DNA of 64,000 bases, taken from contig NZ_JADOBE010000004.1 of the NCBI RefSeq assembly GCF_015637705.1, positions 1 through 64,000 on the forward strand. Reading direction: 5' to 3'. Position 1 is the first letter of the stretch. Each line of letters begins with the position of its first letter. Shown here piece by piece: positions 29,868 to 61,857 of this stretch. This DNA is from Pseudomonas sp. N040 (lineage in GTDB: Bacteria; Pseudomonadota; Gammaproteobacteria; Pseudomonadales; Pseudomonadaceae). The notes below the pieces were generated by a model that did not search any database, was not told where the DNA came from, and saw nothing but the letters and a program-made list of their open reading frames with translations. The translations under genes were made by a program, and so were the position numbers.

Positions 29868-31670
29868 ATGGCCGAACAACTGCTCAGCTCCCGTAACCTG
29901 GCCTTCGAACTCTATGAAGTGCTCGATGCGCAGGCCCTGACCCAGCGCGAGCGTTTCGCCGAACACAGCCGCGAAACTTTCGACGCCGCCATCGGCACCG
30001 CGCGCAGCATCGCCGAGGAACTGTTCGCCCCGCACAACCGCAAGAACGACGAACACGAACCGCAGTATGTGGACGGCGCCGCCGTGCTGATCCCCGAAAT
30101 CAAGCCGGCGCTGGAAGCCTTTATCGAGGCCGGCTTCCTCAACGCCACCCGTGATTTCGAGGTCGGCGGCATGCAGCTGCCCAACCTGCTGTCGCAGGCC
30201 TGCTTCGCCCACTTCCAGTCGGCCAACATCGCCACCAGCTCCTACTCAATGCTGACCATGGGCGCCAGCAACCTGATCGAGAGCTTCGGCAGCGCCGAGC
30301 AGAAGGCGCGCTTCCTGCAGCCGATGATCGACGGCCGCTTCTACGGCACCATGGCGCTGACCGAGCCGCACGCCGGCTCCTCGCTGTCCGATGTGCGCAC
30401 CAAGGCCGAACCGCATGCCGACGGCAGCTACCGGCTCAAGGGCAACAAGATCTTCATCTCCGGCGGCGACCAGCCGATCTCCGAGAACATCGTGCACATG
30501 GTGCTGGCCCGCCTGCCCGATGCGCCACCCGGGGTGAAGGGCATCAGCCTGTTTATCGTGCCGAAGTTTCTGGTCAACGACGATGGCTCGCTCGGCGCAC
30601 GCAACGACGTGATTCTCGCCGGTCTGTTCCACAAGATGGGCTGGCGCGGCACCACCTCCACCGCCTTGAACTTCGGTGACAAGGGCGAGTGCGTCGGTTA
30701 TCTGGTGGGCAAACCGCATGCGGGCCTGAGCTACATGTTCCAGATGATGAACGAAGCGCGCATCGGCGTCGGCATGGGCGCCACCATGCTCGGCTACGCC
30801 GGCTACCTGTACTCCCTCGACTACGCCCGCCAGCGCCCGCAGGGCCGTCAGCCGGATGGCAAGGACCCGACCAGCCCGCAGATCGCCATCATCGAGCACA
30901 CCGATGTGCGGCGCATGCTGCTGACGCAGAAAGCCTACGTCGAGGGCGCCTTCGACCTCGGCCTGTATGCCGCGCGGCTGTTCGACGACACCCATAGCCT
31001 ACCGACCGAGGAAGAGCGCAAGACCGCGCTGGAACTGCTCGACCTGCTGACGCCGATCGTCAAATCCTGGCCTTCGGAGTTCTGCCTCAAGGCCAACGAA
31101 CTGGCCATCCAGATCCTCGGCGGTCACGGCTACACCCGCGAATACCCGGTGGAGCAGTACTACCGCGACAACCGGCTGAACCCGATCCACGAAGGCACCC
31201 ACGGCATCCAGTCGCTCGACCTGCTTGGACGCAAGGTGTCAATGAACAACGGCGCCGCACTCAAGCAGCTGACCCGCCTGATCCACGCCACCTGCCAGCG
31301 TGCCTCTGGCTACGAAGCGCTGGACGCCCTGCGCCTGCCGCTGGAGCAGCATGTGGCGCGCCTGCATCAGGTCACCCTGGCCCTGCTCGGCGACCTGATG
31401 CAGGGCAAGGTCAATCAGGGCCTGGCCAACTCCGCGCTGTACCTCAAGGTCTTCGGCCATGCGGTGATCGGCTGGCGCTGGCTGGAGCAGGCGATCCGCG
31501 CCACTCAGGGGCTGCAGCAGGGCAACGCGGCTGATAGCGATTTCTACCGCGGCAAGCTGCAGGCGGCGCGCTGGTTCCTGACCTGGGAAGTGCCCGGCTG
31601 CCAGCATGAGCTGAACCTGCTGGAAGCGCGGGATGACACTTGTCTGGGGATGCAGGAGGGGTGGTTCTGA
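29868..31670 (+). CDS. Acyl-CoA dehydrogenase (PA5020-type)
   Basis: 600-residue FAD enzyme of the long acyl-CoA dehydrogenase group, oxidising acyl-CoA to trans-2-enoyl-CoA. Seen are YGTMALTEPHAGSSLSDVRTK (FAD/substrate-binding), GNKIFISGGDQ, and the C-terminal GGHGYTREYPVEQYYRDNRLNPIHEGT, which carries the catalytic-region glutamate of this subfamily. Extra C-terminal sequence of about 130 residues follows, as in FadE-like forms. The ATG at 29868 has GAGG nine bases upstream. Monocistronic; a giant palindrome follows downstream. Substrate chain length not readable. Confidence 0.93.
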   Translation: MAEQLLSSRNLAFELYEVLDAQALTQRERFAEHSRETFDAAIGTARSIAEELFAPHNRKNDEHEPQYVDGAAVLIPEIKPALEAFIEAGFLNATRDFEVGGMQLPNLLSQACFAHFQSANIATSSYSMLTMGASNLIESFGSAEQKARFLQPMIDGRFYGTMALTEPHAGSSLSDVRTKAEPHADGSYRLKGNKIFISGGDQPISENIVHMVLARLPDAPPGVKGISLFIVPKFLVNDDGSLGARNDVILAGLFHKMGWRGTTSTALNFGDKGECVGYLVGKPHAGLSYMFQMMNEARIGVGMGATMLGYAGYLYSLDYARQRPQGRQPDGKDPTSPQIAIIEHTDVRRMLLTQKAYVEGAFDLGLYAARLFDDTHSLPTEEERKTALELLDLLTPIVKSWPSEFCLKANELAIQILGGHGYTREYPVEQYYRDNRLNPIHEGTHGIQSLDLLGRKVSMNNGAALKQLTRLIHATCQRASGYEALDALRLPLEQHVARLHQVTLALLGDLMQGKVNQGLANSALYLKVFGHAVIGWRWLEQAIRATQGLQQGNAADSDFYRGKLQAARWFLTWEVPGCQHELNLLEARDDTCLGMQEGWF

Positions 31671-31735
31671 GACTGACGATGTAAAGCTTGCCGTGCCAAC
31701 AGTGTTGGAGCATCTTCCCTTGTTCGATAGCTTTG

Positions 31736-32260
31736 GGTTGCGCCCCCCCCTCGGGCGCCTCACTTTTCTTTGCTTGTGCAAAGAAAAGTAAGCAAAAGAA
31801 ACACCCCCCTGCATACGGGTCTCGCTGCGCTCGACTTCCCTCGCGCCGGCGTTGCTCCGCAGGCACGCTCCGAAGGACCATCCATGGTCCATCGGAGCTT
31901 TCTCGGCGTCCTGCCTCGAAACCTGCTGCGCAACACTTCTGCTCGGCCTCCTGACGGGGACGGTCCGACTACCGAAGCCGAGCATTTCCAACGAATCGGC
32001 GCCTGACGTGCACGGACTGACAGTCCCGTCAGGAGGGTGAGCGGAGTCGGTGTGGAGGGGGTTGAGTCGCATGGATGCGACGAAAGCTGCGCTGGGCCAT
32101 GGACGGCCCATCGCAGCGGGCCCCTGGAGCGCCGATGGAGCGAACGAACCCGAAATGCAGCGAAGCGAAATGAAGGGCCGAATGCCGGGGGCGCTTTCTC
32201 TTTGCTTACGTTCTCTTTGCGCAAACAAAGAGAAAGTGAGGCGCCGTGCAAGGCGCAACC
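31736..32260. repeat. 525-bp imperfect giant palindrome (two inverted arms of about 260 bp)
   Basis: The outer ends are GGTTGCGCC (31736) and GGCGCAACC (32260). Both arms then carry GGCGCCTCACTTT and an A/T-rich TTTGCTT..GCAAAGA..AGCAAA block. Further in, each has a local hairpin with GGACCATCCATGGTCC (31876-31891) or its counterpart GGGCCATGGACGGCCC (32094-32109). Near the centre lie CCTCCTGACGGGGAC (31947-31961) and GTCCCGTCAGGAGG (32023-32036). The open frames across it have no gene-like features. It sits between an acyl-CoA dehydrogenase and nhaP2. Confidence 0.8.
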
Positions 32261-32322
32261 GGTAGATCGGGCCACGGAATGCGCAACGCGTTGACACCAG
32301 CACACACCAGCCAACACCTTCT

Positions 32323-32353
32323 TTGACACCCCGCCAAAGCCCCGGGTTAGAAT
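32323..32353 (+). promoter_or_regulatory. Sigma-70-like promoter for nhaP2
   Basis: Perfect -35 TTGACA (32323-32328) and -10 TAGAAT (32348-32353) with a 19-bp spacer, slightly long. It predicts a leader of roughly 55 bases before the nhaP2 start. A second TTGACA occurs at 32291. Confidence 0.5.
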
Positions 32354-32413
32354 CCCGGCATGCACCCTGCATGATGGAAGCATCCTCCCGCGCCCCTCAC
32401 CGGAGTAACCCCC

Positions 32414-34156
32414 TTGGACGCCAGCAGCATCAACAGCCTGTTCCTGATCGGTGCACTGCTGGTGAGCCTGAGCATCCTGGTGAGCAATTTCGGCTCGCGT
32501 TTCGGCATCCCGATCCTGGTGATTTTCCTCGGCGTGGGCATGCTCGCCGGCGAGGACGGGCTGGGCAAGATTGCCTTCGATGACTACTCCACCGCCTACC
32601 TGATCGGCAACCTGGCGCTGGCCATCATCCTGCTGGATGGCGGGATGCGCACCCGGGTCGCCAGTTTTCGCGTGGCGCTGTGGCCGTCGCTGTCGCTGGC
32701 GACCTTCGGCGTGCTGCTGACCGCCGGGCTGACCGGCGTCGCGGCTGCCTGGCTGTTCCAGCTGAGCCTGCTGGAAGGCCTGCTGGTTGGCGCCATTGTC
32801 GGCTCCACCGATGCCGCCGCGGTGTTCAGCCTGCTCGGCGGCCGCGGCCTGAACGAACGGGTCAGCGCCACCCTGGAAATCGAGTCCGGCAGCAATGACC
32901 CGATGGCGGTGTTCCTCACCGTGACCCTGATCAGCATCATCAGCCACGGTGAAGCACTCAGCTGGGCGCTACCGCTGGAGCTCTTGCGCAATTTCAGCAT
33001 TGGTGCCGCCATCGGCTTGGGCGGCGGCTGGTTGTTACTGCAGGTGATCAACCGCCTGCAACTGGCCAATGGCCTGTATCCGCTATTGGTGGTCAGTGGC
33101 GGGCTGCTGCTGTTTGCCATCACCAACTGGCTGGACGGCAGCGGCATCCTGGCGATTTATTTGTGCGGGCTGGTGCTGGGTAACCGGCCAATCCGTTCGC
33201 GGCACGGCATTCTGCACATGCTGGATGGGCTGACCTGGCTGGCGCAGATTGGCATGTTCCTGGTCCTCGGCCTGCTGGTCACCCCGCATGAACTGTTGCC
33301 GATTGCTTTGCCGGCGCTCGGGCTGGCAATGTGGATGATCCTGTTTGCCCGGCCGCTTTCCGTGTTTCTCGGGTTGATGCCGTTTCGCGCCTTCCATGAT
33401 CGCGAAAAAGCCTTCATTGCCTGGGTCGGATTACGCGGTGCGGTGCCGATCATTCTCGCGGTGTTCCCGCTGATGGCCGGACTGGAAAATGCCCAGCTGT
33501 TCTTCAATCTGGCGTTCTTTATCGTGCTGGTGTCGTTGCTGCTACAAGGCGCCAGCCTGCCCTGGGCGGCCAAGCTGCTGAAGGTCATAGTGCCGCCGGA
33601 CCCGGCGCCAATCTCGCGGGCCGGCCTGGAGATCCATCCGACCAGCGAATGGGAGCTGTTCATCTACCGCCTGGGGGCCGAAAAATGGTGCATCGGCGCG
33701 CCCCTGCGCGCCCTGAAAATGCCTGCCGGCACGCGGGTCGCCGCGCTGTTCCGCGGCAGCGAACTGTTGCACCCGTCGGGCAGTACCACCCTGCAGGCAG
33801 CCGACATCCTCTGCGTGGTCGGCCATGAACATGACCTGCCGGCACTCGGCAAGCTGTTCAGCCAGGCCCCGCAACGCGGGCTCGACCTGCGCTTCTTCGG
33901 CGACTTCGTGCTGGAAGCGGATGCCGAACTTTCTGCGGTGGCGGCACTCTATGGTCTGCAACTGGGGCAGATCGACGGCCGCATGGCCCTGGGCCGCTTC
34001 ATCGCCCATGAAATCGGCGGCCAGCCGGTAGTCGGCGACCAGGTCGAATGGAATGGCCTGACCTGGACCGTAGCCGTGATGGACAACAACAAGGTGCGCA
34101 AGGTCGGCGTCAAATTCCCCGAAGGCGAACGCCCGGGCCCCGCCTTGTTCCTCTAG
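32414..34156 (+). CDS. nhaP2: Potassium/proton antiporter NhaP2 (CvrA family)
   Basis: 580-residue cation/proton antiporter (CPA1). The first 390 or so residues are about 12 membrane helices with [15 protein letters not shown] and [13 protein letters not shown], where conserved aspartates bind cations. The cytoplasmic C-terminal part is a TrkA-C/RCK-like domain ([20 protein letters not shown]) followed by a CorC-HlyC-like domain ([20 protein letters not shown]). It exports K+ and protects against excess potassium and osmotic shifts. The start is a TTG at 32414 with GGAGTAA eight bases upstream. mscK follows 73 bp downstream, a sensible pairing for ion and turgor control. Confidence 0.92.
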
Positions 34157-59382: not shown

Positions 59383-59451
59383 GTGATCAGTTTTTCGTTT
59401 CAGGTTATTCCTCTCGCATAACCCATTCTTTTATCTGGAAATCTAAAAGCC

Positions 59452-61857
59452 TTGATACACCTGATAAAGTTTTTCTGGTGGTCTTTCGTAGCTGTTTTTT
59501 GCGGGCTATTGCTCAGTTTAAGCGGCGCCTTTCTCTACCTCAGCCCCAGCCTGCCTTCTGTCGAGACATTACGCAGCGTTCAGCTGCAGATGCCTCTCAG
59601 GGTTTTCAGTAGCGACAGAAAGCTGATTGCCGAATTCGGCGAAATGCGGCGCACGCCAATTCGATTCGCCGACATTCCAACCGACTTCATCAATGCACTG
59701 TTAGCGGCCGAAGATGACAACTTTGCCAATCACCATGGCGTAGACCTGACCAGCCTGGTACGCGCGAGCTCCGAGCTATTAAGGAGCGGGCACATCCAGA
59801 CAGGCGGAAGTACCATCACCATGCAGGTGGCAAAAAACTTCTTCCTTTCCAGCGAGCGCAGCTTTTCCAGAAAGATCAATGAAATTTTGCTAGCCCTGCA
59901 AATCGAGCGGGAACTCAGCAAGGATGAAATTCTGGAACTTTACGTGAACAAGATTTACCTCGGCAATCGCGCCTATGGTATCGAGGCAGCCGCACAGGTT
60001 TACTACGGCAAATCCATCAGGGATGTCAGCCTGTCACAGATGGCCATGATTGCCGGGTTGCCCAAAGCTCCCTCACGCTACAACCCCCTGGCTAACGCCC
60101 CGCGCAGCAAAGAGCGCCGCGACTGGATTCTCGGGCGGATGTACAAGCTCGGCCGGATCGATCAGTCACGCTACGACGCGGCAATTGCCGAACCTATCGA
60201 CGCCAGCTACCACGGCCCGACGCCGGAACTGAACGCCCCCTATATAGCCGAAATGGTTCGCGCAGAAATGGTTGGCCGTTACGGCAGCGATGCCTATACC
60301 GAGGGCTTTCAGGTCACAACTACCGTTCCCAGCCATTTGCAGGATGCGGCGACCAGCGCAGTTCGCCAGGGGCTGACAAATTACGACGCGCGTCATGGCT
60401 ACAGGGGGCCGGAAGCTCGCCTGCCCGGAATGACCAAAAATACCTGGCTGGAAGAGCTGGCCAAGCACCGCAGCATTGGCGACCTTGAACCCGCGATTGT
60501 CACCCAGGTCGAGCAAAGCGGCATTCTGGTGTTGACCAGGAGCGGCGAAGAAGTAGCTGTCCCGTGGGAAAGCATGAAGTGGGCCCGGCCATTTTTAAGC
60601 ACCAACAGCATTGGCAGTCGCCCGCAAAAACCCGGCGATGTAGCCCAGGTCGGCGACCTGATAAGGGTAAGCCGCGGAACGGATGGCAGTTTCAGTTTTC
60701 GTCAGATTCCGGCAGCCCAGGCCGCCCTGGTTTCCCTTGATCCGCGCAACGGCGCAATCCGCGCCCTGGTCGGCGGCTTCTCATTCGAGCAAAGCAACTA
60801 CAACCGTGCCGCCCAGGCAAAGAGGCAGCCAGGGTCAAGCTTCAAGCCCTTCCTCTACAGCGCCGCCCTTGACCACGGCTTTACAGCTGCCAGCCTGGTC
60901 AATGACGCGCCAATTGTCTTCCAGGAGGCCGGCATGGACGAGGCCTGGCGACCGAAGAACGACAACGATACCTTTCTCGGCCCGATACGCCTGCGCGAAG
61001 CCCTGTACAAGTCACGCAACCTGGTTTCGATCCGCGTTCTTCAGGCCATCGGCATCAATTACGCCCTCGATTACGTAAGCCGGTTTGGCTTCAACAAAGA
61101 GGACCTGCCGCGCAACTTTTCCCTAGCCCTGGGCACTGCAAACCTGACACCACTGGAAATCGCCAGCGGCTGGAGCGTTTTTGCCAACGGCGGCTTCAAG
61201 GTCTCGCCCTACCTGATTGAACGCATTGAAAGTCGTGATGGCCAGGCATTATTCATAGCCAATCCTGCGAGCATCCCCGCACCACAGGAATCAGTCGCCG
61301 TCGAAATAAATGAAGCCCCCTCTGACACTACTGACACCTCGCCAGTCCTGGCCGAACGTATTGTCGACGCGCGCACGACGTACATTCTCACCAACATGCT
61401 GCAGGATGTAATCAAGCGCGGCACCGGTAGACGCGCCCTGGAAATGCAGCGCAACGACCTGGCCGGAAAGACCGGCACCACCAACGAATCGAAAGACAGC
61501 TGGTTCTCCGGCTTCAACGCGGATTACGTGACTACCGTGTGGGCCGGCTTTGACCAGCCGGAAAGCCTCGGGCGCAATGAATACGGCGGCACGGTTGCCT
61601 TGCCCATCTGGATCAGCTTCATGAGCGCCGCCCTAAAGGACCAGCCGGAGCACCTGCTACCCGAACCCGACGGCATCAAGACCCTGCGCATAGATCCGGT
61701 GACCGGCCGGGCAGCCGCCCCAGGGACCCCTGGCGCCTACTTCGAACTGTTCAGGAGCGATGATTCGCTCCCGAGCATGGGTGAACAATCCCCTGGCTCG
61801 GCAGCACCGGGCGGCCCGTTGCCTGCGGACGAAAGTACGCCCATCGACCTGTTCTGA
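59452..61857 (+). CDS. ponA: Penicillin-binding protein 1A (bifunctional)
   Basis: 801-residue class A PBP that polymerises and cross-links peptidoglycan. One N-terminal membrane helix. The GT51 glycosyltransferase domain has AAEDDNFANHHGVDL, which contains the catalytic glutamate (about 84), and GGSTITMQVAKNFF. An OB-like insert follows. The transpeptidase domain has SxxK in GSSFKPFLY, SRN (YKSRNLVSI) and KTGTTNES. The start is a TTG at 59452, with weak GGAA further upstream; other starts downstream would clip the helix. Divergent from pilM, as in P. aeruginosa. Confidence 0.96.
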   Translation: MIHLIKFFWWSFVAVFCGLLLSLSGAFLYLSPSLPSVETLRSVQLQMPLRVFSSDRKLIAEFGEMRRTPIRFADIPTDFINALLAAEDDNFANHHGVDLTSLVRASSELLRSGHIQTGGSTITMQVAKNFFLSSERSFSRKINEILLALQIERELSKDEILELYVNKIYLGNRAYGIEAAAQVYYGKSIRDVSLSQMAMIAGLPKAPSRYNPLANAPRSKERRDWILGRMYKLGRIDQSRYDAAIAEPIDASYHGPTPELNAPYIAEMVRAEMVGRYGSDAYTEGFQVTTTVPSHLQDAATSAVRQGLTNYDARHGYRGPEARLPGMTKNTWLEELAKHRSIGDLEPAIVTQVEQSGILVLTRSGEEVAVPWESMKWARPFLSTNSIGSRPQKPGDVAQVGDLIRVSRGTDGSFSFRQIPAAQAALVSLDPRNGAIRALVGGFSFEQSNYNRAAQAKRQPGSSFKPFLYSAALDHGFTAASLVNDAPIVFQEAGMDEAWRPKNDNDTFLGPIRLREALYKSRNLVSIRVLQAIGINYALDYVSRFGFNKEDLPRNFSLALGTANLTPLEIASGWSVFANGGFKVSPYLIERIESRDGQALFIANPASIPAPQESVAVEINEAPSDTTDTSPVLAERIVDARTTYILTNMLQDVIKRGTGRRALEMQRNDLAGKTGTTNESKDSWFSGFNADYVTTVWAGFDQPESLGRNEYGGTVALPIWISFMSAALKDQPEHLLPEPDGIKTLRIDPVTGRAAAPGTPGAYFELFRSDDSLPSMGEQSPGSAAPGGPLPADESTPIDLF

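Follow-up and report, generated by a model that had tools for sequence, protein, structure and literature searches.

We sought to identify the nature of a 525-bp inverted structure between two genes of Pseudomonas sp. N040, at positions 31736-32260 of a 64,000-nucleotide stretch of its genome (hereafter the window). A first-pass annotation, made from the letters alone, had described two inverted homologous arms that each hold small hairpins of their own, and had proposed a composite of two inverted repeat copies, a non-coding RNA locus or a recombination hot spot. It had also named arms that align only over short motifs as grounds for giving up the idea. The arms are diverged homologues and not a near-perfect palindrome. 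In a global alignment of 31736-31959 (224 bases) with the reverse complement of 32025-32260 (236 bases), 166 of 240 columns were identical (69%), and 200 shuffles of one arm reached 53% at most. By BLAST, the element shares 67% identity with its reverse strand over query positions 19-510 (E 5.5e-33), so that the inverted arms lie at the place described and align well past the short motifs.

Parts of the inverted element

The plus strand of the element folds at -295.8 kcal/mol (z -14.4), a value matched by 0 of 100 shuffles, and the small hairpins inside each arm are seen both in the sequence and in the folds. The parts of this copy and its flanking genes are as follows.

29868-31670, plus strand: acyl-CoA dehydrogenase, the upstream gene (Pfam)
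31736-32260, no strand: whole inverted-pair element, copy E01 (about 18 places in the genome; alignment of copies)
31736-31758, no strand: left GC-rich hairpin, GGTTGCGCC...GGGCGCC (sequence; alike in other copies; counterpart at 32240-32260)
31759-31792, no strand: left terminal hairpin, CTCACTTTTCTTTGC / GCAAAGAAAAGTAAG (inverted repeat, alignment of copies)
31833-31958, minus strand: left arm, a TwoAYGGAY-like RNA unit read outward (model R1, 119.4 bits; the arm is within the set from which the model was built)
31880-31885, minus strand: hexaloop AUGGAU of the second hairpin, left arm (sequence, fold)
31908-31912, minus strand: pentaloop AGGAC of the first hairpin, left arm, with N missing (sequence, fold)
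31959-32024, no strand: centre between the arms, varying in length and sequence among copies, with no sigma-70-type promoter-like site
32025-32151, plus strand: right arm, a TwoAYGGAY RNA unit read outward, with three-way junction (R1, 139.6 bits, by construction)
32071-32076, plus strand: hexaloop AUGGAU of the first hairpin, right arm (sequence, fold)
32099-32104, plus strand: hexaloop AUGGAC of the second hairpin, right arm (sequence, fold)
32194-32240, no strand: right terminal hairpin, CTTTCTCTTTGC...CAAAGAGAAAGTGAG (inverted repeat, alignment of copies)
32240-32260, no strand: right GC-rich hairpin, GGCGCCGTGCAAGGCGCAACC (sequence, alignment of copies)
32414-34156, plus strand: Na+/H+ exchanger with TrkA-C and CorC_HlyC domains, the downstream gene (Pfam), which by name we take to be CvrA/NhaP2

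The earlier description of a site between metabolic genes is right for the dehydrogenase, while the exchanger is not metabolic in the strict sense. The open frames within the element had been judged non-coding, and we agree: no Pfam domain matches the two longest (377 and 395 amino acids, minus strand), which extend in antisense into the genes on either side, and a protein-coding reading was rejected.

An RNA motif read outward from each half

The right arm matches the RNA family TwoAYGGAY (RF01731) at 32059-32123 on the plus strand with 47.2 bits, above the curated Rfam cut-off of 43, while the left arm alone (31861-31924, minus strand, 32.2 bits) stays under it. The hallmarks of the family, two GGA-loop hairpins on a junction and covarying stems, are present in the arms. 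Rfam gives clan CL00106 for the family and files it as cis-regulatory; in the accessible text of the 2010 publication it appears as a probable RNA that is not cis-regulatory (Weinberg 2010, PMC2864571). Folded alone, the right arm has a stem, an internal loop whose two sides both carry GGA, and a three-way junction from which two hairpins branch (z -4.3, 0 of 200 shuffles as good); the fold of the left arm reaches z -2.8, with 1 of 200 shuffles as good. The unit of the element is thus a structured RNA motif, in keeping with the non-coding RNA locus first proposed. Rsm/Csr models of Rfam gave nothing over cut-off in the window. At 59431-59724 of the window, on the minus strand, Rfam places a full-length asponA (anti-ponA antisense RNA; 170.7 bits, cut-off 113). 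Matches of microRNA models lay under their cut-offs and were taken as chance matches to long hairpins.

Covariation was assessed on an alignment of the 33 arms found in this genome (128 columns). Standard pairs occupy 90.4% of the pair cells, and two-sided changes occur in 17 of 33 pairs. The cells with two-sided changes number 125 against 47.3 +/- 6.6 in shuffled alignments (0 of 500 as high), counts that are inflated by left and right arms being two related classes. When the partners were slid by one to three columns, the two-sided cells fell to 0 to 15. The measure of further pair types was not above shuffles (113 of 500 as high).

Since a G-U wobble reads as an A-C mismatch on the opposite strand, the two can be compared strand by strand. 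On the outward strand the 33 own arms hold 94 G-U against 8 A-C cells (12 and 5 of 32 pairs); for the 84 distinct arms of other genomes the figures are 116 against 19 (16 and 8 of 32 pairs). These are counts of cells in related arms and not of events, and they omit one pair of the model whose partners are in fact both loop bases; with it included they become 94 to 13 and 116 to 44. The asymmetry speaks for an outward-strand RNA rather than a cruciform or an antisense RNA. Of the very large cruciform or RNA hairpin that had been envisaged, the strong fold stands, and the wobble pairs shift the balance from cruciform to outward RNA. On the same strand an arm of 161 bases has on average 7.7 GGA and 0.24 TCC; letter shuffling leads one to expect 5.4 GGA per arm, and the GGA richness is partly base composition.

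GGA is conserved in both hairpin loops. Of the 33 own arms, all 33 have it in the first loop, preceded by an N that is U in 25, G in 3, A in 1 and missing in 4; the second loop has GGA in 32, with N being U in 24, G in 5, A in 3 and missing in 1, and X being U in 16, C in 14 and A in 3. In arms of other genomes A(N)GGA is found in 84 of 85 first loops and 78 of 85 second loops, the departures being mainly of one form, ACACGACGU, which stands in 7 second loops and has no GGA. According to the accessible text of the RsmE study (PMC4005645), the high-affinity site is an ANGGAX hexaloop sitting directly on a stem, with N looped out and free in identity, and some RsmZ loops lack N, which lowered affinity in most of the cases tested. 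Because the loops here vary as A(N)GGAX, the variable positions are those that are free in the published site, and the arms carry the paired A(N)GGAX loops directly on a stem that a CsrA/RsmA site calls for. By the same account, the first loop of the window's left arm, in which N is missing, would in most cases be the lower-affinity form. CsrA binding of TwoAYGGAY was predicted from the motif in 2014, when it was still called a family of unknown function (PMC4333381, in its accessible part).

A dispersed pair of divergent arms

The element is a dispersed inverted-pair repeat, apparently non-coding, in which each half is a TwoAYGGAY-type unit read outward. Searched with 31700-32300, the own genome (3.67 Mb in 33 contigs) returned 66 matches, which resolve by position to 18 element places and 7 places with terminal-hairpin sequence only. 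Four of the 18 sit at contig ends, as repeats are expected to. With a covariance model made from 33 arms, these 33 and no further arm were recovered at E 0.001 among the best 150 of 2505 candidates. They form 16 pairs, every one divergent with the left arm on the minus and the right arm on the plus strand, and one single arm; the 18th element place, at a contig start, holds no arm. The genome search for single arms that the first-pass annotation had recommended therefore turned up one among 33, and its conjecture of two inverted copies of a repeat proved apt, the dispersed repeat being built of two inverted units.

Some copies carry further peculiarities. Five centres (own genome G000, C28:121215, C29:248697, C32:202462, C12:11981 and C23:191690) contain additional palindromic sequence (GTAGGGTGGAAAACGCC or similar), which may be a further small repeat lying inside the element. 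At three contig ends (the right ends of L005 and L006 and the left end of L009) the copies break in the terminal hairpin at CACAAG and, judged by eye, run on into partly similar sequences, as if an insertion sequence had entered the same hairpin loop three times. This is at most a hint of an insertion target, and the recombination hot spot suggested earlier was not shown.

Is the pair a recent product of this locus? Among 80 relatives' loci with the acyl-CoA dehydrogenase the element was found in none (BLAST, E 1e-3), and Rfam gave nothing over cut-off in the 18 of these loci that were scanned. In 34 of the 80 the exchanger gene is the next one downstream, starting within about 430 bases, and in 16 of those 34 the gap between the two genes is about 136-428 bases, against 743 here. 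Comparison with relatives had been proposed as a way of dating the inversion. We built an arm tree on 127 columns, with few forks resolved, from the 33 own arms and 39 arms of other genomes (72 in all); matches shorter than 110 bases and the arms of G017, G089, G079, G080, G026, G010, G030 and G031 were left out. Every one of the 17 own right arms falls into a group with arms of G028, G008 and G072 (support 96/93). Of the 16 own left arms, 11 fall with arms of G066 and G001 (support 100/98), and the other five, the window's included, attach at the next fork outward, where support (90/85) is not firm. As own arms group by side with arms of other genomes, a recent local inversion was judged unlikely. 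The arm types are common to several genomes, and the inverted pair is therefore probably older than the species.

The occurrence of the motif is patchy, often with many matches in one genome. In the relatives search, TwoAYGGAY scores over its cut-off in 19 of 57 genomes (36 of the 57 belong to the same genus, own included); it does so in 29 of the 40 genomes behind named loci, and in 16 of 369 genomes drawn from the class, own among them, against 0 of 14 control genomes. With strict filters, 17 of the 36 same-genus genomes have no match at E 0.001, which implies that the element is not essential; the same holds for 8 of the 40 genomes, including P. taiwanensis, P. batumici, P. gingeri and P. 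syringae PA-6-8C. Arms per genome, which are lower bounds, number at least 52 in the genome of the P. kilonensis locus, where all 52 scored candidates were matches, at least 46 in P. libanensis and at least 36 in P. thivervalensis. Carriage by phage or plasmid was rejected: the element is in 0 of 50,697 phage records and in 2 of 72,556 plasmid records, both partial, one of these being 4.9 Mb long and so likely a chromosome.

Pairs of divergent arms are also found in other Pseudomonas and in further families of the class. In 45 tool-chosen loci elsewhere, a set that leaves out two own loci, neighbouring arms were divergent in 16 (one with a partial partner), tandem in 1 and convergent in 1; 28 of the 45 show no second arm within the model threshold, and two loci are without any arm. 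With a loop-and-stem pattern applied to 47 loci (2 own), 19 were divergent, 1 tandem and 1 convergent. By eye, L203 and L277 from other Pseudomonas and L226 from another family of the class share the order terminal hairpin, arm, centre, arm, terminal hairpin, despite having little sequence in common. At L222 (365-1180) the inverted repeat continues into the flanks for about 25 more bases, where both sides share the motif GGTCTGATCCAACATCCTGG. Some pairs in other Pseudomonas adjoin a C4 antisense RNA or its a1b1 targets (L243 58-110, L266 1-66 and 127-179, L259 1096-1148; in Rfam, two a1b1 and one C4 over cut-off and one a1b1 below). C4 antisense RNA with a1b1 is a mark of P4-like phage.

Explanations for the repeat

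REP and REPIN sequences are inverted pairs of palindromic units scattered between genes, as the element is; REPINs are far shorter, and the units here are RNA motifs of about 160 bases. MITEs are likewise short intergenic repeats, some with inverted ends, and the R0-R200 repeats of P. fluorescens, to which we liken the element by their descriptions in the accessible text (Silby 2009, PMC2718517), are short and intergenic, some with inverted ends, and show a tail-to-tail bias. Compared with both, the element is larger and has internal RNA structure, and no duplicated target site was evident by eye. Its arms share with RF01731 the two GGA-loop hairpins on a three-way junction. That model describes a single unit, whereas here the unit is half of a divergent pair with terminal hairpins, at tens of arms per genome, and the loops follow A(N)GGAX, which is wider than AYGGAY. 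GGA-bearing hairpin loops are also what the arms have in common with the RsmX/RsmY/RsmZ and CsrB/C decoys, and the average of 7.7 GGA per arm stands beside the eight GGA motifs given for RsmZ of P. fluorescens (PMC4005645, accessible text). Those decoys are genes under GacA control, according to the accessible part of a review that lists one to seven per species and, in its table, RsmZ1-7 and RsmY1-2 for Azotobacter vinelandii (PMC7366521); the arms here belong to dispersed repeats for which no promoter was found. No sigma-70-like site lies in 31600-32500, promoter-like sites upstream of 85 arms were no better than in one shuffle each, and thus the promoter of its own that an Rsm/Csr decoy sRNA gene has was not found in this sigma-70-type search.

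Since the hairpin tips match the RsmA/CsrA docking site, the element may be a mobile decoy for RsmA/CsrA. We give somewhat better than even credence to the reading, drawn from sequence comparison, in which the arms would be paired RsmA/CsrA decoys or landing sites within a spreading, MITE-like repeat. An arm transcribed outward would fold to the three-way junction with its two A(N)GGAX loops side by side, and these paired loops would fit one RsmA/CsrA dimer, so that each copy could act as a decoy or as a local landing site for RsmA. The own genome has one CsrA match, and RsmZ is over its cut-off; RsmZ and mRNAs would then face competition from the roughly 66 loops of the 33 arms for the one RsmA found. 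The repeat itself would spread as a non-autonomous, MITE-like element, settling mostly downstream of genes. In RNA reading through the whole element, the arms would pair into one long hairpin that hides the loops: folding as a single strand is about 59 kcal/mol more favourable than folding as two halves, and the arm loops should accordingly be hidden in read-through RNA. Display of the loops would thus depend on where transcription starts, and would need internal starts or folding during transcription. A replacement of RsmY by TwoAYGGAY is not supported. RsmY has no match over cut-off in the own genome (best 25.1 bits, cut-off 57) and is over cut-off in 34 of 35 other same-genus genomes, 18 of which 35 also have a TwoAYGGAY match at E 0.001, so the two RNAs often coexist; in the remaining genome, G014, RsmY is under cut-off only, and neither RNA is over it.

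Plain non-autonomous mobile DNA of the MITE type, whose hairpins would serve a transposase or replication as DNA and whose GGA loops would be incidental, is in our view an unlikely explanation. It is consistent with the many alike copies per genome, their patchy occurrence among species and their placement between genes, and also with the ends, both of which are inverted, with an end motif common to G017, P. thivervalensis, P. kilonensis and P. libanensis. The wobble asymmetry and the loop conservation point instead to an RNA of one strand, and no target-site duplication was evident by eye in the flanks of copies in the own and other genomes. Of 35 ends in G017, 9 are unpaired and the others form 13 facing sets 456-797 bases apart; at these distances no longer copy that could house a transposase was apparent, and no autonomous relative with a transposase was found among the 13.

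Gene orientation bears on two further readings. A crude codon-composition test assigned neighbours on both sides in 13 of 17 own copies, of which 8 lie tail-to-tail between convergent genes, 5 between codirectional genes and 0 head-to-head. Such placement would suit a bidirectional terminator or insulator that catches transcripts of the flanking genes, with arms that are mainly stem-loops. Fuller copies add to this an outer hairpin, CGGATTNNNAATCCG, followed inward by the T-run TGCTGATTTT, at 10 sites in the own genome, 9 of them at most 150 bases from a copy and 1 beside a hairpin-only fragment, against 0 for the reversed pattern used as a control; a different outer hairpin replaces CGGATTNNNAATCCG in G017, P. 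thivervalensis, P. kilonensis and P. libanensis. By eye, the gap in several relatives holds a GC hairpin with a T-run running into TTGACA ahead of the exchanger gene, which is not seen in the window, where the element stops shortly before TTTGACA. We nevertheless consider termination improbable as the main role, as the window copy is without the outermost hairpins, its stretch has 2 terminator-like sites against 1.3 +/- 1.2 in shuffles, and a terminator needs neither a conserved A(N)GGAX loop nor a three-way junction. The orientations also count against the proposal that a few copies in untranslated regions are cis-acting RsmA sites regulating their neighbours, the others being dead. Copies do adjoin genes, and the Rfam filing agrees, but with none of the 13 head-to-head, though 5 lie upstream of one codirectional gene, and with the 2010 marking of the family in PMC2864571 (accessible text) as not cis-regulatory, we hold this to be very improbable.

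The TwoAYGGAY motif and its predicted CsrA binding are already known; in the main texts of freely accessible papers we did not find TwoAYGGAY described as a dispersed or inverted-pair repeat. Recognition of the motif as half of a divergent pair, with at least 52 arms in one genome, would explain its patchy distribution. The Csr/Rsm system controls secondary metabolism, motility and biofilm in Pseudomonas. Going beyond the favoured reading of paired RsmA/CsrA decoys, we put forward tentatively, as a possibility that we rate rather below even, a selfish repeat of several Gammaproteobacteria families that carries such decoys in outward pairs, of which TwoAYGGAY is one half, and whose copy number tunes, or sabotages, Csr/Rsm. 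The locus thereby raises the question of whether mobile repeats feed GGA decoys into the Csr/Rsm system.
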